Shown piece by piece: positions 4,821 through 41,981 of a DNA stretch of 43,750 nucleotides. The notes beneath the pieces were generated by a model that was not told the DNA's origin, ran no database searches, and saw only the letters and a program-made list of their open reading frames with translations. The stretch spans positions 1-43,750 of the IMG/VR virus record IMGVR_UViG_3300044691_000847; one strand, given 5' to 3'. The translations under genes and the position numbers were made by a program. This DNA comes from a virus. Each line of letters begins with the position of its first letter. The first letter of the stretch is position 1.

Positions 4821-5007
4821 GTGATTGTCAAAGAACAGATGGAGGAAGCGGGCGAGGATTTGCCACAAAACGTATTTCACTGTGTGCAGTCACCTCGCAA
4901 TTGTTATGGTCTAGACCCATTAGCGTCTACCTATTCCGCCACCGCTTCTTTCCATCTGCGGTCATTGTCTCATGGCTCAGAAAACCCGCAAGCGAGTTAT
5001 CCCCACA
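4821..5007. other. Non-coding stretch, no clear feature
   Basis: I see no supported gene or strong repeat between the structured segment and the small basic protein gene. The frames that run through it on both strands have no recognisable sequence. Confidence 0.4.
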
Positions 5008-5285: not shown

Positions 5286-6167
5286 ATGTGGGCGCTCTTT
5301 GTTTACGGCGGGCGGCCCGCAAGCAGCGCTGTCAACGATGCGGCCTCTACTTGCCTCGTCGCTCGCCAATATATGAACGCATTAATCGTCGGCGCCAATA
5401 AAACCCCCATCCTCGACCACGTGGAATCGTCTCCTTTTTTACTGATAGACGACGGCCCTTTGATTGATGCACTGGTCATTCCTCCACGAAGGAAGGTCGT
5501 CCACTTCGATGTTAAAAAGCACCACCTCAACCCATTGCATGAAATGGATTACAGGCGGGCGCGGGAGTTCATTTCAATACTCGACGCGATTTTCCCAGAG
5601 GGCGACAGCACGCTAACGAAGAAGAACGCGAATTTCGTATTGCTTAATGCCCTACTCGACAAGCCTACCTATCTTGACAAGCTGCTGCGGGGCGACAAGC
5701 GTGACCCTGCGAAACAGGATGCCTACCAGAAGATAGAGACCATCCTGCTCTCGCCTGTGCTGCGTTCGGTGCTGTGCGAGCCGACCAACTTTTCAATGAA
5801 AGGAATTGTGCTGGCGCGGCTCGACCGTGCGGTGCTCGGTGACTTCGATGCGTTCGTTCTCGCCAACCTGCTCATCTCGCAATTCGAGGGCCAGGTGATA
5901 ATCCCCGACTTCGGCTTCTACGGCCGTGAGCACCACATCTCGCTTATCAGGCAGGACAGGCTCGTTGCCGGCGTCAGCACGCTCTCTCAGCTGCCGCTGC
6001 GCCTCCAGCAAGCCCTCCTGACCGTGCCGGAGAAGATCGCGTCACGGACAACGTCTGAGGATGCGGAGATCTTGGCGAAGTATCGTGGTTTCGTGCCGCA
6101 CACAAATGAGTTTAACGATTTCATACTGGGTGCGATTTCTGCAAGTGGGGACACTCACCGAGCCTGA
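5286..6167 (+). CDS. Degenerate TraG/HerA-like ATPase (catalytically dead)
   Basis: A 293-residue protein whose order of segments matches the active VirD4/TraG-like ATPase at 36828-38549. ALIVGANKTPIL replaces the P-loop (GPSGSGKTT there), LLIDDGPL matches VIIDPKGL, VHFDVKKHHLNPL matches IIIDPTFSPPPALN, and KGIVLARLDRAVLGDFDAFV matches KSIVLVNTGMNTLGSDASQL. VIIPDFGFY stands where the Walker B strand LIIDEFQEF is. The GKT lysine context and the DE pair are both lost, so it should not hydrolyse ATP. It may be a regulatory or structural subunit of the other ATPase, or a substrate adaptor. The ATG at 5286 has GAGG about ten bases upstream. The homology is my alignment by eye. Confidence 0.6.
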   Translation: MWALFVYGGRPASSAVNDAASTCLVARQYMNALIVGANKTPILDHVESSPFLLIDDGPLIDALVIPPRRKVVHFDVKKHHLNPLHEMDYRRAREFISILDAIFPEGDSTLTKKNANFVLLNALLDKPTYLDKLLRGDKRDPAKQDAYQKIETILLSPVLRSVLCEPTNFSMKGIVLARLDRAVLGDFDAFVLANLLISQFEGQVIIPDFGFYGREHHISLIRQDRLVAGVSTLSQLPLRLQQALLTVPEKIASRTTSEDAEILAKYRGFVPHTNEFNDFILGAISASGDTHRA

Positions 6168-6659: not shown

Positions 6660-7234
6660 ACAGCGAGGCGGGCATTCGGCTCCCACGGATTGATGGCCCA
6701 ATCGAGGATGTGTTTGCCTAACTCTGCGTTCACAGCGTTTCTCTCTAGGAGAGGGATTCTGTTTGCTTTTTGATTCTTCCCCGACATCTTCCCAATGGAA
6801 TCATTCGGCAATGCGAGGTCGGGGAATGGAAAGTTGGACCAGATGTAGTGTCTGCCTATCGTTGTTGGTCGGATGAGGGGTTCGTAGTATGCGATTACAT
6901 TTTCTACTGCCCATTTCCCCTCGAAGAATTCACGCAGGAAGATTATTTCTTGATATAGGGCCATATCAGGAAACCGAAAAATGCCTTTTCCCTTCAGGAA
7001 GTAGTTAGTTCTGCTGTGTGTAGGACAGGGTGGAGAACTCCAAATGAAATCATAATCTTGGAAATGTTCTAAGAGATATCGGTGAGCGTCGGCTACGATC
7101 ACCTTATCGTTCGGGAAAAAGTTTTGGTAGATGGCTGCAATTTGCGGATTTAGTTCGACCGCTGTTATCTGATGCTCGTTTCCCCACAGCTTCCTATTTC
7201 CTCCGATGCCAGCGTACAGGTTCAATATTTTCAC
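6656..7234 (-). CDS. DNA (cytosine-5) methyltransferase-like protein
   Basis: A 192-residue protein with the AdoMet-binding start KILNLYAGIGGNRKLW, the acidic strand AVELNPQ, and the catalytic loop SSPPCPTHSRTN with the PPC cysteine of C5-cytosine methylases. ENVIAYYEP matches motif VI. It is about half the usual length and lacks a recognisable target-recognition domain, as in small phage methylases. I start at GTG 7234 because AAGGA lies just upstream. Likely role: protecting phage DNA from host restriction. No partner nuclease is adjacent. Confidence 0.8.
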   Translation of the reverse strand: MKILNLYAGIGGNRKLWGNEHQITAVELNPQIAAIYQNFFPNDKVIVADAHRYLLEHFQDYDFIWSSPPCPTHSRTNYFLKGKGIFRFPDMALYQEIIFLREFFEGKWAVENVIAYYEPLIRPTTIGRHYIWSNFPFPDLALPNDSIGKMSGKNQKANRIPLLERNAVNAELGKHILDWAINPWEPNARLAV

Positions 7235-7613
7235 GATCCTTTTCGCTTGAACGTACAGCCGCGCTTGGGAGAACGGCTGCACACTCAAACGCCCAAGCTA
7301 GTAATGACTCATTGTCTCATGCCCCGTCCCGCTGTCTACTCCCGCTCCCTGCGGAATCGTGGGCTGGTAAAAGGACACGGCTATCGGACGCGCCTCATGG
7401 ACGGCGGGGAATAACGGACGCGCCTTGGCGTGTTCGTTATCGACACGATGTACATGAGGCGTGATCTTCAGGCATCGACGTCTGTCCAGGCTCGATGAGC
7501 AGAGGCGCCCGATAGGGAGCCTCCGAGCACTTTGTACACATGGTACAGGTATCAGGAACATCGTAGCACGGTTCACGTGTAACGCTTGGCGGGGCTGTCA
7601 GGAGGAGCACTGT
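7235..7613. ncRNA. Hairpin-rich non-coding stretch
   Basis: No gene is supported for this part of a 780-base gap. It holds an 11-base direct repeat (CGGACGCGCCT at 7385-7395 and 7415-7425) and a chain of hairpins on the plus strand: CGTGT/ACACG at 7429-7447, CATCGA/TCGATG around 7473-7497, GAGGC-CCC/GGG-GCCTC at 7502-7523 with a GATA loop, and TGTAC/GTACA around 7534-7548. TGGCGG near 7587 can also pair with CCGCCA at 7614, competing with the big hairpin. This may be the 5' part of one large structured RNA. The strand is inferred from the flanking plus-strand gene. Confidence 0.35.
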
Positions 7614-7809
7614 CCGCCACGGTGGCGTCGGTGGTCTGCGTATGCAGCCACGACCTGATTAGGTTTGCGTCCTCGCCCCCGAGCTTTAGCGAAGAGGGGC
7701 GATGGGTATGGGGCAGTCCAGCCGGTAGGCGGTGTGCGGAGCGCAGGAAAGGACCATAGAGTCAAACGTAATCAGGTCGTGGCTGGATAGCCCGACGGCA
7801 CCGTGGCGG
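7614..7809 (+). ncRNA. 196-nt interrupted long hairpin, candidate large structured RNA
   Basis: Arms 7614-7631 and 7792-7809 pair at 17 of 18 positions. After an asymmetric internal loop (13 and 6 bases), arms 7645-7667 and 7763-7785 pair at 22 of 23. The apex (7668-7762) contains TCGCCCC/GGGGCGA (7673-7679 with 7696-7702) and TATGG/CCATA (7707-7711 with 7754-7758). No coding frame is convincing. It lies 210 bases before a plus-strand gene. It could be a structured RNA, a replication or transfer origin that extrudes as a cruciform, or a miniature transposable element; no target-site duplication is visible. Confidence 0.6.
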
Positions 7810-8018
7810 AAATGTAGGAATTGCAGGCATTGTCAGCGTAGACACAGTTGTAGGTACAGTGAGTAGGACTGTGGGGTGGGGTGTAGGTAGGCACTGTGAA
7901 GGTGAAATGTGCGCGAGCGGCCGAAGCCGAAGGCCGAGACCGTAGGGCTCGGTTCACGAGGACGCGGTCCCCGAAGTGGGGCGCGCCGGCAGCGGACCGA
8001 ATCGGATAAAGTAAAAGG
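7810..8018. other. Non-coding leader upstream of membrane protein gene
   Basis: No gene is supported. Smaller pairings are present: CACAGT with ACTGTG around 7842-7872, CGGCC with GGCCG near 7917-7936, and CGGTCC with GGACCG around 7965-7999 enclosing CCCC/GGGG. These may continue the structured region to the left and form the leader of the 8019 gene. A minus-strand frame here encodes a Thr/Pro/Cys-rich stretch that I do not accept as a gene. Confidence 0.35.
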
Positions 8019-8630
8019 ATGACACCGTTCGAAATAGCCTTGGAAGCGGAGCTAAACACGGAGGTTCGCCGTTTCCATGATCAGTGGTTATTCAGGTGGT
8101 ACGACATGACGTACGAAGGCGGCCTGACTGAGGTGGAGGATTTCAAGGGTGGCGTGATCCGGTACGGAGGCGTCACGTTCGGATATCAGCAGCAGGGTGT
8201 ATACTGGCAAGCCATAGATTTGTATCTACGGCAGAAGGTTCACGCTGTATTTAAGCAGTGGGATATCGAGACGCGGAGTTACGCCCTAGCGACGCGGCGA
8301 GCATCGGTGGATGGTGCAGCTCGGATCCTCGGGTTGTTCGTGGCTGACGTGTTGGTGCGTTCGTTGGAGACTGACAAGCGGCTTCGGGGGGACGGGATGC
8401 CTTACGTTCCGCCAGCAGGTCATGCGCAAGGCGGCTCAGGGGCCGATATGGTTCGATTGTTGGAGGCCCATCGGGCGCTTGTCGATCAGGAGATAGAAGA
8501 GCAAAAGCGGAAGGCAAGCGGGTTGTGGAAATGGATTGAAACGTTCTACGCCGAGAACAAGGGATTGATTTGGTTCGGCGGGGCGCTAATTGCAGTCGTG
8601 AGCGCGGCCGTACACTTCTTCGTACGATAG
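8019..8630 (+). CDS. Hypothetical protein with C-terminal membrane anchor
   Basis: A 203-residue protein with a soluble, charged body and one transmembrane helix at residues 179-200 (LIWFGGALIAVVSAAVHFFV), followed by only a residue or two. A tail-anchored topology with the body in the cytoplasm is likely. Residues 140-170 form a charged helix (LVDQEIEEQKRKASGLWKW). No family is recognised. A purine stretch (AAAAGG) lies immediately before the ATG. The gene follows a 780-base non-coding region rich in RNA structure and is followed by a candidate small RNA. Confidence 0.7.
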   Translation: MTPFEIALEAELNTEVRRFHDQWLFRWYDMTYEGGLTEVEDFKGGVIRYGGVTFGYQQQGVYWQAIDLYLRQKVHAVFKQWDIETRSYALATRRASVDGAARILGLFVADVLVRSLETDKRLRGDGMPYVPPAGHAQGGSGADMVRLLEAHRALVDQEIEEQKRKASGLWKWIETFYAENKGLIWFGGALIAVVSAAVHFFVR

Positions 8631-35695: not shown

Positions 35696-35729
35696 ACCGC
35701 CGCCGCAGCAGTCGGCGGTTTTGCTTTTT
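35696..35729 (+). terminator. Rho-independent terminator
   Basis: ACCGCCG and CGGCGGT form a 7-bp stem with a 10-base loop, followed by TTTGCTTTTT. It ends the 35440 transcript and abuts the stop of the convergent replication-relaxation gene. Confidence 0.8.
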
Positions 35730-36717
35730 ACTTAGCGCCCAACTCCGCAAGAATATCAAGCGGCGGATGCCCTACCCGCTGCCACGGCTCGGTCAGCATA
35801 AAGCCCGTAGGCTTCGGGAAATAGTCAATGGATGCGAACTCGCGGACGTATTTGAAGGCGATATGCGCCGAGCCTTTCCCGCCTGTGCGGTCCTCCAGAA
35901 TATTCATCATCTCCCGCATTTCGTGCTCGCTGATAGCGACGAAGAGCGTCACGGCGTTCGGGATGCCGAGCTGGCGCTGATAGGTGCGTTGCCTGTGCAG
36001 CTCAAGTGCCGCCAGTATCTTTTCATTGATGGTCTGCCGCACGGTCTTTTCCGGGTTGCGCGTCTCTGTCCCGCGATCGACTTCGATGCCGGCGACGAAC
36101 AGCCGCTTGGTCTTATCTGCCTGCGTGTAGGCGATAGCGAACGGCTTGCTGTCGTGCACTGTATCGCGGTCTACCTCCACAAGCCTGTTGAGGCGCGGCG
36201 TGTGGTAGCTGAACTGCGTAGGAAAATGGAAAGGGGTTGTTGAACGTTTCGTCTCGGGCGGGCAGGACGGATGCGCAAGTATGTCACGATAGGTGACGAG
36301 CGAAAGCCCAGCTGTCTCCTTCACTCCGAGAGCAAAGGATGCGTCCACGATGCAGCGCGCCGACTTGTGTTTGATATGGTCGTTGCCGCGCGGTGTAGGC
36401 CGGTACATGCCCGCGTTGGTCAATGCCTGCTCGCCTTTCGAGGAAAGCGCATATAGAGCATGGCGATAGCGGGCGTTCGGCGTGTCCCATGAGCCGGGCG
36501 GGCACTCAATCACTCCCGCCTTGTGCCGCAGGATGGAGAGGCGCGCGAGCGTGTATTCCACAGGCAAGTCTAGGATGACGGGAATGTAGTTGCTCGGCAG
36601 GCACTCGTAGTCCTGCAAGAGGTCGAGAATACGCAGGTCGGTTTGACTGATACGGAAAACGCCGCCCTTCGCGGTGTTGTCGAACCGGGAAACTCGTTTG
36701 GCAGTTTTGGTCGGCAT
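35728..36717 (-). CDS. Replication-relaxation family winged-helix protein
   Basis: A 329-residue protein. The N-terminal winged helix reads FRISQTDLRILDLLQDYECL, LARLSILRHKAGVIECPPGS and RYRHALYALSSKGEQALTNA, as in the replication-relaxation family (Pfam PF13814) known from conjugative and plasmid elements. The rest is a mixed domain with FVAGIEVDRGTETRNPEKTV, whose E-x-D-R-G-T-E resembles a nuclease-like core. It lies 110 bases downstream of the TraG-like ATPase gene on the same strand. Probable role: DNA processing or regulation of replication with that ATPase. Confidence 0.75.
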   Translation of the reverse strand: MPTKTAKRVSRFDNTAKGGVFRISQTDLRILDLLQDYECLPSNYIPVILDLPVEYTLARLSILRHKAGVIECPPGSWDTPNARYRHALYALSSKGEQALTNAGMYRPTPRGNDHIKHKSARCIVDASFALGVKETAGLSLVTYRDILAHPSCPPETKRSTTPFHFPTQFSYHTPRLNRLVEVDRDTVHDSKPFAIAYTQADKTKRLFVAGIEVDRGTETRNPEKTVRQTINEKILAALELHRQRTYQRQLGIPNAVTLFVAISEHEMREMMNILEDRTGGKGSAHIAFKYVREFASIDYFPKPTGFMLTEPWQRVGHPPLDILAELGAK

Positions 36718-36827: not shown

Positions 36828-38549
36828 CTACCACTTTGTTGAGACGATAGAGCCGTCATCCTCGGGGGGCGTTGGCGGTGCTGCCTTTCGCTTTGGTGCG
36901 GGTTCGGATGGAAGGGGCGCAGGCAGCGGTTGGAACGCTGCTGGTAGCGGCTTTGAGGGCAACTCTTGAAGCGATAATCGCTTGGCGTTCGCCCGCAGCA
37001 TCCTTTCCAGCGCTTCCCTGTTCATGTGCGGTTGGCGGTCAATTTCTCCGAACGGCGCGGAGTGTACGAACGGATGCTGCGTGAATCCTCGGACAAAGCA
37101 GGCGAAGCGGGCTTCTGTCGATGTCTTGCTCTGCGCCGTGAGGAATGACGGTTCGCAGCGGAGATCCCGCGCGACATATGAGAGGTCTACACCCTCGGGG
37201 CTTGAGGCGTACTTGATGCTGGTATTGGTCGATACGGCCGAACGTATCTTCTCGGTCATTCCTGAGCCGTGCATCTCCTGATGTGCGAGCGTGACGGCCA
37301 GATTGTACTCTCGCGCGAGCCGCAACAGCTCGGGGGTCTTTTCCTCGTCAGCGAACTCCTGAAACTCGTCGATGATGAGATGAACCTGATGCCATTCATT
37401 CTGGGGAAGCGTGAAACGAGCATAGGCGGCGTTGAGTGTAAGGGAAATTATGTAACGCCCAAGAAGCTGCGAGGCATCCGAGCCAAGCGTATTCATGCCG
37501 GTGTTAACCAGGACGATTGATTTGTTCTGCAAGCAGTCGAGCATATCGAGCTTGCGTTCCCTCGCCTCGAACATGCGGACAAATTCTGGGTGCTGCAACA
37601 CGCCATAGATGCGGGCCTTTATCTGTTGGCGCGTCTCCTTGTAGTTTGAGCTGAAGAACTCGTTTCGGAAGAAGCGCTCAGAAGTGGTGTCGAGTCTCCC
37701 GATGAAGGGCGCGAAGCGGCATTGAGAATACGGCTGCCCTTTCGGGTCGTCGGTGCGCGTCGGGTCGTCCATCAGGTCAATGAGCGTGTGGATATTCGAT
37801 TCCATCCCGAACATGAGTCGTACTGCGAAGCCAAATGGTGTCGCCTGTTTGTCCGTGAGTTTGGAGCCGGTACTTGAGAAAATAAAAGCGAACGTGCTTA
37901 TCGCTTGGTTCTCAACGCGCCGCCGCTGCTCTACTGACCAGATTTGGTTCCACCGCGAGGCTGCGTGGAACATGTTGAGCGCGGGCGGCGGGCTGAAAGT
38001 CGGGTCGATGATGATGAGCCGGTCTTTGAGGCGGCCGTTATCGGGGTTGAACACGTCAAGCGATTGGAGCCGTTTTACCATCAAGCCCTTCGGGTCGATG
38101 ATGACCATGCCGGGCGGGCCTTCTTTAGCCAGGTCGGCAAGGATGAGCTGCTGTAGGAGCGTCGTTTTGCCCGAGCCGCTTGGACCGAGGATGTGCGTGT
38201 GCTCGGAACGGAATTTGTCGGGGATGGGTCGCGGCACAAGCAGTTCTTGAAATGCCCTTTCTTCCTCTTCTCGTGCTCGGTTCGCCTCGGCAAGCTTGTT
38301 GGCCTCCTGCTGAGAGCGGTATGCGACTTCAGCAAACCATTTGGAGCGATAGGCCGCGAGGTGTCTATGAATCACGCCTTGCAGCTCAGGGTGCTGCAGG
38401 TCGGCGGGTATTAACTCGGGCAACGTGCGTTTGAGTGCTTTGTATTTGCATTCTTCTGAGCAGAAGGCGAACGGGTCGGCAGGTTCGATTCGGACTCGTG
38501 ACTGGAAGAGTTGGCTGCATTCAACACATCGGTCAGTATCAAATTTCAT
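36828..38549 (-). CDS. VirD4/TraG-like coupling ATPase with N-terminal zinc ribbon
   Basis: A 573-residue protein. Residues 8-35 form a zinc ribbon (CVECSQLF...FCSEECKY). The ATPase has Walker A HILGPSGSGKTTLLQQLILA near residue 120, MVIIDPKGLMVKRLQSLD, and Walker B VHLIIDEFQEFADEEKT. AREYNLAVTLAHQEMHGSG is the Gln-containing sensor strand of TraG/HerA proteins. The C-terminal 60 residues are Pro-rich. No N-terminal membrane helices are seen, unlike classical VirD4. It should pump or deliver DNA, or act in element replication. It is coupled by ATGA to the zinc-ribbon gene and has a dead relative at 5286-6167. Confidence 0.85.
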   Translation of the reverse strand: MKFDTDRCVECSQLFQSRVRIEPADPFAFCSEECKYKALKRTLPELIPADLQHPELQGVIHRHLAAYRSKWFAEVAYRSQQEANKLAEANRAREEEERAFQELLVPRPIPDKFRSEHTHILGPSGSGKTTLLQQLILADLAKEGPPGMVIIDPKGLMVKRLQSLDVFNPDNGRLKDRLIIIDPTFSPPPALNMFHAASRWNQIWSVEQRRRVENQAISTFAFIFSSTGSKLTDKQATPFGFAVRLMFGMESNIHTLIDLMDDPTRTDDPKGQPYSQCRFAPFIGRLDTTSERFFRNEFFSSNYKETRQQIKARIYGVLQHPEFVRMFEARERKLDMLDCLQNKSIVLVNTGMNTLGSDASQLLGRYIISLTLNAAYARFTLPQNEWHQVHLIIDEFQEFADEEKTPELLRLAREYNLAVTLAHQEMHGSGMTEKIRSAVSTNTSIKYASSPEGVDLSYVARDLRCEPSFLTAQSKTSTEARFACFVRGFTQHPFVHSAPFGEIDRQPHMNREALERMLRANAKRLSLQELPSKPLPAAFQPLPAPLPSEPAPKRKAAPPTPPEDDGSIVSTKW

Positions 38550-40302: not shown

Positions 40303-41412
40303 CTATGCGGGCATCAGTCCGCGTAGGTGAGCCTCGTAGCGCTCCACGGCCACACGCATCTGAGGAAGGTAAGAATACCTGTCGTATATGGCCTCCACGT
40401 CGGTCTGAACGCCGGCCGCATGGTTGATAAGTCGCTCCGCTATTTCGCGCGGGGTCCCTATCTCTCCGTGGGTGCTGCGGTAGGTCCGCCTTAGGTCATG
40501 GAGCGTCCAGCCTGAGACGCCATCCGCCAGCTCCTTCTTGAACTTGCTCCATCCCGAGAGAGGCCGTTCGTCGGACACCTTCGAGGGAAAGAGCAGGTCA
40601 GTCGAATTGCGGCGGGGTATCGTTCCGAGTATTTCCGCGACCATCCCGTTATACGGGAACGTATGGTCCCGCTTGTTCTTGGTCACGCCGTCCTCCCCGC
40701 CGGGAAGGGTTATCGTTTGCGCTTTCAGGTCTATCCACGGCCAGCGAAGGTTGGCGATCTCGCCACGCCGCTGTCCGGTGAGGATAAGCAGCCGCACGAT
40801 AACGCCGTGCGGATAGCTTTGCCTTCCCGCTGCCGTCCAGACGGTCTTTAGCTCCTCCGGCTTCAAGATGCGCTTGCGCTTCTTCGCCACCTTCACCTCT
40901 ATGCCCTCTAGGGGCGAGTGGGGGATGTAGCGACGAGGCGGCTTGACGCACCAGCGCAGGAAGGTCCTACAGACGACCAGGGCGTGCGCTGCTTCGCTTG
41001 GGGCCGCGCCCGCGATGCAAGCCACCACCAGCTCGTAGGTAAGCTCCCGCAGGCGCTTCTTGCCGAGCCGGGGGATGAAGTACTTGCCGAGGAACCGCTT
41101 GTATTCCGTCCGGGTCTTCGGCTTCTTGGCAGCGAGAGTAGCTTCGTACTCCTGATAGGCTTCGGCCAAGGTCAGCCCGCCGCGCGGGGCCGGTTCTTCG
41201 ACCAGGCGCTTCTTCGCTTCCTTGCGGGCCTCCGCAAGGCTCATGCTTGGGTAGCGGCCGATAGCGATACGCTGCCGGTCGGTCCCTCTCGTGATGACCC
41301 ACGTCTTACGGTTCTTGCCGACGCGGACGCCGAACGCGGGAGTGGTTTCGTCGTAGTAGATTCCGGGTGTGGTGAGACGCTGCACCACAATTTCTGTGAG
41401 GTGCGTGCGCAT
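40303..41412 (-). CDS. int: Tyrosine-family site-specific integrase
   Basis: A 369-residue protein. The N-terminal arm-binding part has AFGVRVGKNRKTWVITRG. The core-binding domain follows (TLAEAYQEYEATLAAKKPKT). Catalytic residues appear in LTGQRRGEIANLRW (Arg), DGVTKNKRDHTFPY (Lys), LHDLRRTYRS (His and Arg), LINHAAGVQ (His) and AIYDRYSYLPQ (Tyr). I start at ATG 41412 with GGAG seven bases upstream. A longer reading would begin WVGSNHRPPVPQ, which is the antisense of the tRNA fragment and not protein. It recombines the element into the tRNA-His gene. Confidence 0.92.
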   Translation of the reverse strand: MRTHLTEIVVQRLTTPGIYYDETTPAFGVRVGKNRKTWVITRGTDRQRIAIGRYPSMSLAEARKEAKKRLVEEPAPRGGLTLAEAYQEYEATLAAKKPKTRTEYKRFLGKYFIPRLGKKRLRELTYELVVACIAGAAPSEAAHALVVCRTFLRWCVKPPRRYIPHSPLEGIEVKVAKKRKRILKPEELKTVWTAAGRQSYPHGVIVRLLILTGQRRGEIANLRWPWIDLKAQTITLPGGEDGVTKNKRDHTFPYNGMVAEILGTIPRRNSTDLLFPSKVSDERPLSGWSKFKKELADGVSGWTLHDLRRTYRSTHGEIGTPREIAERLINHAAGVQTDVEAIYDRYSYLPQMRVAVERYEAHLRGLMPA

Positions 41413-41517
41413 TTTTGTCTCCTTTTTGTCTCTCAAAGAGCGTGTGTAGAGGTGAGTTTCCAGGAGACAGTATACACCGCTCAATAGGGAAAAACTTTTC
41501 AAATACAGAGACTTACG

Positions 41518-41532
41518 GTGACTATGCGTCAC
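41518..41532. repeat. Short dyad next to attachment site
   Basis: GTGAC and GTCAC around TATGC, between the integrase start and the tRNA fragment. A likely arm or accessory-protein site for integration. Confidence 0.35.
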
Positions 41533-41545
41533 TATGAGGAAGTCA

Positions 41546-41598
41546 AATCCTGTCTGTGGAACAGGAGGTCGGTGGTTCGAGCCCACCCAACTGTACCA
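41546..41598 (+). other. Right attachment site: 3' part of a tRNA-His gene
   Basis: CCTGT (41549-41553) and ACAGG (41561-41565) form the anticodon stem with a 7-base loop carrying GTG (41556-41558), the His anticodon. GGTGG-TTCGAGC-CCACC (41571-41587) is the T-arm. CAACTGT, discriminator A and CCA follow to 41598. No matching 5' acceptor strand (ACAGTTG) or D-arm lies to the left; that side is element DNA. So this is the 3' fragment left at the far end of an element integrated in a tRNA-His gene. The intact tRNA should lie at the other end, outside the window. Confidence 0.8.
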
Positions 41599-41981
41599 GC
41601 AACTCAACGGCTTAGCTTGAACTCACCGGCATTCGAATTTTCATAGGTACTTTTTAGGTTCGAGACACGTGGGCGGAAGCCCTCGGTCCATAGAACGCGC
41701 TGTATGGCTCGGCTTCCTCGAACAGGAAACGGTCTCGAATCGACTGTCCCTGTGCATTCAGCAATTGAGCGGCAATGTCCGGCAACTCGTTCCGAGCGCG
41801 GGCATAGTCCCTCCGCGCTCACCAATGAAATCAGGCATAACTCGACTACCGGCCCGATCCGCTCTGTGATTTGGCAATGCTCTTGGCAATGTGTCGCTAG
41901 ATTTGAGCGATCATCATAAAATAGCCCGCCTATGGGCCGGGATGATGGCTTGCTCGCCGAATATGCGTGGCGGAGGCGGGC
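41599..41981. other. Host flank with no supported gene
   Basis: High-GC chromosomal sequence right of the attachment site. I see no convincing gene. TTGGCAATG occurs twice 13 bases apart near 41871-41892. Frames across the stretch have no recognisable protein sequence. Confidence 0.4.

Follow-up and report, generated by a model that had tools for sequence, protein, structure and literature searches.

The long interrupted hairpin in an intergenic gap of a tailed-phage genome forms the center of a family of folded nucleic acids that has not been described before and that is common to environmental phages and to integrated elements of Alphaproteobacteria. Its fold is kept by compensatory change, it has a single functional polarity, and it co-occurs with the family of the protein encoded at 5373-6167. 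The nucleic acid is most likely RNA. We lean toward the reading that the hairpin and its 3' tail (~7606-7905, plus strand) form a standalone structured non-coding RNA that acts in trans within a DNA-mobilization module.

The window, i.e., the whole stretch of 43,750 bases that was analyzed, is a tailed-phage record; it encodes a terminase, tail and lysis proteins, and a tyrosine integrase (Table 1). The gap extends for ~784 bases, from the likely GTG start at 7234 of a minus-strand C5-methyltransferase gene to an ATG at 8019, in agreement with the ~780 bases of the original prediction. The predicted 196-nt hairpin at 7614-7809, with 39 of 41 positions paired, was recovered exactly, the exceptions being two G.G oppositions. 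Two helices (P1 and P2) are separated by an asymmetric internal loop and enclose a variable apex, and the base of P2 is near-invariant (CCRYGAC/GTCRYGG). These helices are the sole long inverted repeats in the 43.75 kb window (score >= 14, arms <= 350 nt apart). Folded as RNA, the plus strand of 7614-7809 reached -116.6 kcal/mol (z = -8.3) and its complement -103.5 kcal/mol (z = -9.2); none of 200 shuffles was equally stable on either strand. Additional hairpins had been proposed on both sides of the core, and these were found upstream (7389-7463, which covaries) and downstream (7912-8002).

Table 1. Features discussed in the text, in positions of the window.
Feature	Position	Strand	Remark
Degenerate VirB4/VirD4-like protein, partner-gene candidate	5373..6167	+	Near hairpin in all 12 intact cases
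Separate pseudoknot	7244..7298	-	Precedes start codon of divergent methyltransferase gene
Pseudoknot S1	7244-7250/7285-7291	-	
Pseudoknot S2	7253-7261/7274-7282	-	
Pseudoknot helix, loop to 3' side	7263-7269/7292-7298	-	
Domain B, phage-only accessory hairpin	7386..7465	+	Outer and inner helix
Domain B outer helix	7389-7402/7450-7463	+	Fully rewritten in L193 and L194
Domain B inner helix	7411-7424/7427-7440	+	Two invariant G.U pairs
Domain C, core hairpin	7613..7810	+	P1, internal loop, P2, variable apex
P1	7613-7631/7792-7810	+	18/19 Watson-Crick, one G.G
P2	7645-7667/7763-7785	+	22/23 Watson-Crick, one G.G
Asymmetric internal loop between P1 and P2		+	3' side conserved: GGATAGCC and variants
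Apical part of domain C	7668-7762	+	Variable; ~50-170 nt across family
Domain D, 3' tail	7811..7905	+	C-poor, GTAGG-rich
Domain D motif copies	AGGAATTG near 7817; TACAGTGAGTAG at 7855-7866	+	Weakly supported family-wide
Domain E, phage-only 3' hairpins	7912..8002	+	Window and L192 only; one compensated pair
Replication-relaxation protein (PF13814-like)	35728..36717	-	E 3e-4, below cut-off
TrwB/VirD4-type ATPase (PF10412)	36828..38549	-	Module member
Tyrosine integrase	40303..41607	-	

Screening against the 4227 families of Rfam returned no match for the window at the gathering threshold and none for 7250-8030 even at E-values up to 5. At the gathering level the other loci yielded tRNAs only, and an sbcD match in L242 (E = 1) is at chance level. 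Comparison of the gap with INPHARED phages (blastn) yielded no match, and a protein search with the 8019 gene yielded no relatives. A pattern for the domain B hairpin retrieved mostly chance coding matches and two known copies, while a pattern on GTGGCGGAAATGNAGGAATT retrieved a single chance coding match (L211).

Patterns applied to IMG/VR yielded four further phages with the hairpin. L191 (also L090) was retrieved with a 14-base word from the stem, L192 and L193 via the conserved 5373-6167 gene, and L194 by matching to a pattern taken from the hairpin's 3' side. The whole gap is present in L191 at 79% identity to the window, and the hairpin region sits at an equivalent position in all five phages, ~1.2-1.5 kb past the 5373-family gene. 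The stems are compensated, as seen from CCACGACCTGATTAGG/CGTAATCAGGTCGTGG in the window, CCGCGACCTAAACATATCC/GGATATGTTTAGGTCGCGG in L192, and CCGCGACTTCCTTTTCC/GGAAAAGGAAGTCGCGG in L194. In an alignment of the arms of the five copies, from which the apex was masked, both partners had changed in 17 of 37 pairs and 91.9% of cells were paired; pairing fell to 48% or less when one arm was slid by one to three columns.

A lone relative of the 5373-6167 protein was first found in genome contigs, in an element of a Hyphomicrobium metagenome-assembled genome (MAG; L199/L238), where the P1-loop-P2 hairpin was seen by eye. More relatives were identified in 4 of 397 genomes of the order, 2 of 385 of the class, and 4 of 103 of the family, and in the virus record L197. 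Patescibacteria had been considered as phage hosts and were dropped, as the integrated relatives occur in the Hyphomicrobium MAG and other Alphaproteobacteria; host assignments based on MAGs are subject to possible misbinning.

A covariance search with a model built from homologous gaps, as suggested in the original prediction, was conducted with the five phage copies alone as the training set and a short calibration that renders the E-values rough. On this rough scale the model recovered the hairpin in L238 (44.6 bits, E = 6e-9), L197 (43.6 bits, E = 1e-8), L237 (36.9 bits, E = 5e-7), L235 (34.4 bits, E = 2e-6), and L236 (24.2 bits, E = 7e-4), always with one preferred strand. One locus was predicted beforehand: next to a new 5373 homolog in genome G971 the hairpin was found at L242:7446-7589 (51.1 bits, rough E = 3.7e-11), 150 nt upstream of the homolog and divergent from it, as predicted. 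The model thus yielded six copies beyond its training set (E = 7e-4 to 4e-11), and a seventh, L221, was identified by eye. The orientation of L221 is uncertain because its model match (16 bits) and the choice made by eye fall on opposite strands. Among 397 Hyphomicrobiales genomes the model detected the known element and chance-level matches of up to 26 bits, and blastn of the 3' core detected no match. Since scores of 24-26 bits arise by chance in this set, the assignment of L236 rests also on its position and on a perfect stem of 20 bp.

Across the 12 sequences, both partners had changed in 16 of 23 scored pairs, with 94.5% of cells paired, whereas slid arms gave at most 50% and none of 500 shuffles reached the observed value. 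Compensatory changes in both arms, which had been proposed as the test for RNA, are therefore abundant. Each of the 12 intact 5373 homologs has the hairpin nearby (11 by the model, including the five training copies, and L221 by eye); no hairpin was found with a split homolog (G423, L222).

The protein encoded at 5373-6167 comprises 264 amino acids and is present, besides the window, in L191-L194, L197, L221, L235-L238, and L242. It had no matches in Pfam, PHROG, or NCBIfam, and tblastn detected none among INPHARED phages or PLSDB plasmids; it represents a new protein family of phages and integrated elements. AlphaFold2 applied to the family alignment (pLDDT 88) predicts a VirB4/VirD4-like fold, with matches to Thermoanaerobacter VirB4 (4ag6, E = 1e-4), the C-domain of DndH, and chains of the R388 type IV secretion system (T4SS) ATPase. 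The predicted fold is like that of VirB4/VirD4/HerA-type ATPases; however, the family alignment lacks an intact Walker A motif (GxxxxGK[ST]) and has VGxNKxPxL without a conserved GK[ST] in its place. This suggests that the protein is a pseudo-ATPase.

The relaxation-type protein and the TraG-like ATPase that had been reported elsewhere in the phage are both present where they had been placed. In all 10 records that contain both, the ATPase gene and the hairpin lie on opposite strands, ~28 kb apart in phages. In most integrated elements the hairpin adjoins the 5373 homolog, divergently, and the order is integrase, AlpA-like gene (assigned by reading), GC-rich hairpin, core hairpin, 5373 homolog, VirD4-like ATPase, and relaxation-type protein. 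Phage structural genes are absent from the parts of these elements that were read. In genome G406 (L221:9221-19209), cargo genes separate the hairpin from the 5373 homolog; by reading, they encode an MMPL-type exporter, MarR and TetR regulators, and an MFS transporter.

The domains around the core are less widely shared. Domain D is nearly identical among the window, L191, and L192, and its motif TACAGNG exceeds shuffles across the family by only ~2.4 standard deviations. An additional helix, P0 (CACTGT/ACAGTG), was not adopted, as it fits only the window, L191, and L221. In L193 the equivalent of domain B (L193:8314-8390) is inside the apex of domain C, not upstream as in the window, and this relocated block keeps the inner sequence CTATCGTGACGGCC..GGCTGTTCGATAG of window 7386-7465. 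Domain B of L194 contains a strong terminator-like hairpin (AAAAGGACACCcgagGGTGTCCTTTT, L194:9902-9935), which suggests that any transcript of domain C in this phage would start after domain B. Terminator-like hairpins of the form AAAGGACGCGCC..GGCGTGTTCCTTT were also observed downstream of 5373 homologs (L090:892-918 and L193:7268-7298), and these share their two G.U wobbles with the domain B inner helix.

Domains B and E are absent from the integrated elements, and a pseudoknot at the upstream end of the gap is a separate element, such that the proposal of one large RNA filling the whole gap does not hold. The pseudoknot is conserved with covariation in the window, L191, L192, and L193, and all seven of its irregular pairs are A.C on the plus strand and hence G.U on the minus strand. 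This indicates a minus-strand element distinct from the large hairpin. The pseudoknot and its G.U wobbles are kept while the gene behind it changes (C5-methyltransferase, another methyltransferase, an unidentified gene, and a YopX-like gene). It had no match in Rfam and may act as a phage leader or control translation. A minus-strand 12-mer, CATGAGANAATG, occurs at window 7310-7321 and 4963-4974, with both copies kept in relatives (L191:4684 and 7915; L192:4865 and 8178). One copy is upstream of the pseudoknot and the other follows a terminator-like hairpin, and the 12-mer is a candidate phage promoter or operator element. The minus strand at 4950-4920 contains a tRNA-Leu-like 5' half (AGCGGTGGCGGAATAGGTAGACGC), a possible remnant of an attachment site; ARAGORN found no full tRNA there and no tRNA gene was detected in the window. 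A resemblance of GGTGGCGGAA to tRNA-Leu was judged coincidental with respect to the hairpin.

The homologous strand of the core folds better than its complement in all 12 copies, and in 10 of 12 by a z-score controlled for dinucleotide content. This one-sided polarity favors a folded single strand over an operator in double-stranded DNA. It is also unlikely that a cruciform with a spacer of 50-170 nt is extruded. Polarity and pairing, the sole proven properties of the hairpin, fit RNA and single-stranded DNA alike. Core pairs comprise 251 Watson-Crick, 5 G.T, and 3 A.C pairs; G.U pairs are scarcer here than is usual in RNA helices, which counts against RNA and would be compatible with DNA. A promoter before the hairpin is not convincing, and the terminator-like hairpins that lie behind the core in the integrated elements could just as well act for the convergent int-alpA side. 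In favor of RNA are the invariant G.U pairs and block movement of domain B, the independence of the hairpin from its neighbors, and its constant company with the 5373 gene.

These properties could also be those of a hairpin of single-stranded DNA that acts in cis, as a single-strand origin (sso) or part of an oriT, folded while the element is copied or moved in single-stranded form and recognized by the relaxation protein, the VirD4-like ATPase, or the host RNA polymerase or primase. We regard this explanation as the main rival, though rather unlikely. Folded single-stranded DNA would account for most of the observations, and the association with a module of relaxation protein and TraG-like ATPase is real. 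Beyond the few wobbles in the core, the explanation draws on the position of the hairpin in integrated elements, upstream of an operon of 5373 homolog, ATPase, and relaxation gene as expected of an oriT, and on the polarity relative to the ATPase gene, which is fixed even over ~28 kb in phages. In phages, however, the hairpin accompanies the 5373 gene and is far from the relaxation gene, the PF13814 match of which is below the cut-off, and neither a HUH relaxase nor a known sso or oriT sequence was recognized here. P1 and P2 enclose 50-170 nt of unrelated apical sequence, an architecture unlike that of known oriT or sso hairpins. The G.U pairs and block movement of domain B, moreover, look RNA-like. 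The sso of ICEBs1 and rolling-circle plasmids is an intergenic, orientation-specific region of stem-loops in a mobile element (PMC4595007) and to that extent alike, but the stem described here is much longer and strictly compensated and has a replaceable apex.

Under the preferred reading of a trans-acting RNA, the module would comprise the integrase, the VirB4-like protein encoded at 5373-6167, the VirD4-like ATPase, and the replication-relaxation protein, in temperate phages as in alphaproteobacterial integrated elements. The region 7606-7905 would be transcribed, and the RNA would bind proteins of the module in trans, most likely the degenerate VirB4-like protein. The near-invariant base of P2 and the internal loop are a putative protein-binding site, while the long variable stem may serve as a rigid spacer and the apex as a platform that can be replaced. 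The RNA would then help to assemble or control the DNA-processing or transfer complex, as may be the case for sgm-sRNA in the mobilization of SGI1. A more far-reaching version, which we consider unlikely, holds that the RNA is an integral part of a ribonucleoprotein in which the degenerate VirB4-like protein binds RNA beside the active VirD4-like ATPase and the relaxation protein, such that phages and elements would share an RNA-dependent apparatus for DNA transfer or packaging.

The closest functional precedent, by resemblance in layout, would be sgm-sRNA, which is encoded by SGI1 beside its mobilization genes, is required for transfer, and, as its authors suggest, may take part in the transfer complex (PMC9299015). 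Both are non-coding RNAs (the one described here putatively so) of a few hundred bases in integrated mobile elements with non-classical mobilization proteins; in contrast, sgm-sRNA is processed from the 3' end of an mRNA, and SGI1 encodes MpsA/MpsB rather than a VirB4-like pseudo-ATPase (PMC9299015). The hosts also differ, and the likeness described here is one of layout.

The original prediction of a structured RNA of the GOLLD or ROOL kind stands in part, as a structured RNA is favored by the compensated arms, but by Rfam search and by fold it is a member of neither family. GOLLD and ROOL are multi-branched with pseudoknots and are often near tRNA islands. Here, one hairpin of two helices dominates the fold and its apex varies; the window has no tRNA gene, and the hairpin is common to integrated elements that lack phage structural genes in the parts read. 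What is shared is that all are large structured RNAs (putatively so here) of phages or prophages (PMC12286853). A retron or diversity-generating retroelement (DGR) non-coding RNA was rejected, as RVT_1 was not found in six phage and virus records by a search that did detect its controls.

A cis-regulatory leader or antisense element of neighboring genes would be consistent with the divergent intergenic position, and the separate pseudoknot in the gap resembles a leader of the minus-strand gene. The neighbors vary, however, while the hairpin stays. The upstream neighbor encodes the C5-methyltransferase, another methyltransferase, a small protein of no assigned identity, a YopX-like protein, or, across an intervening small gene, an N6-type methyltransferase, all names but the first being assigned by reading the sequences. 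Downstream are plus-strand genes, a convergent gene (L191), or an IS1595-type transposase gene directly behind the RNA region (L194:10410-11282). This variation indicates that the hairpin does not serve as leader to any one gene and, with the polarity of the core opposing the upstream gene, makes such a role improbable. A miniature transposable element or other selfish repeat, suggested by the long inverted repeats and by the new position of the hairpin block in L193, is very improbable given that the arms diverge with compensation, that the partner gene is fixed, and that the multiple dispersed copies proposed as its hallmark were not found, with one copy per record and none dispersed in 397 genomes.

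Collectively, these observations define an uncatalogued family of structured nucleic acids with strong covariation and a constant candidate protein partner, distributed over phages and integrated elements. Should the hairpin act as single-stranded DNA, it would define the origin in a class of alphaproteobacterial elements about which little is known. Should it act as RNA, it would join a very short roster of structured RNAs linked to DNA mobilization, and the Hyphomicrobiaceae element would provide a simple genetic entry point to the function of such RNAs.
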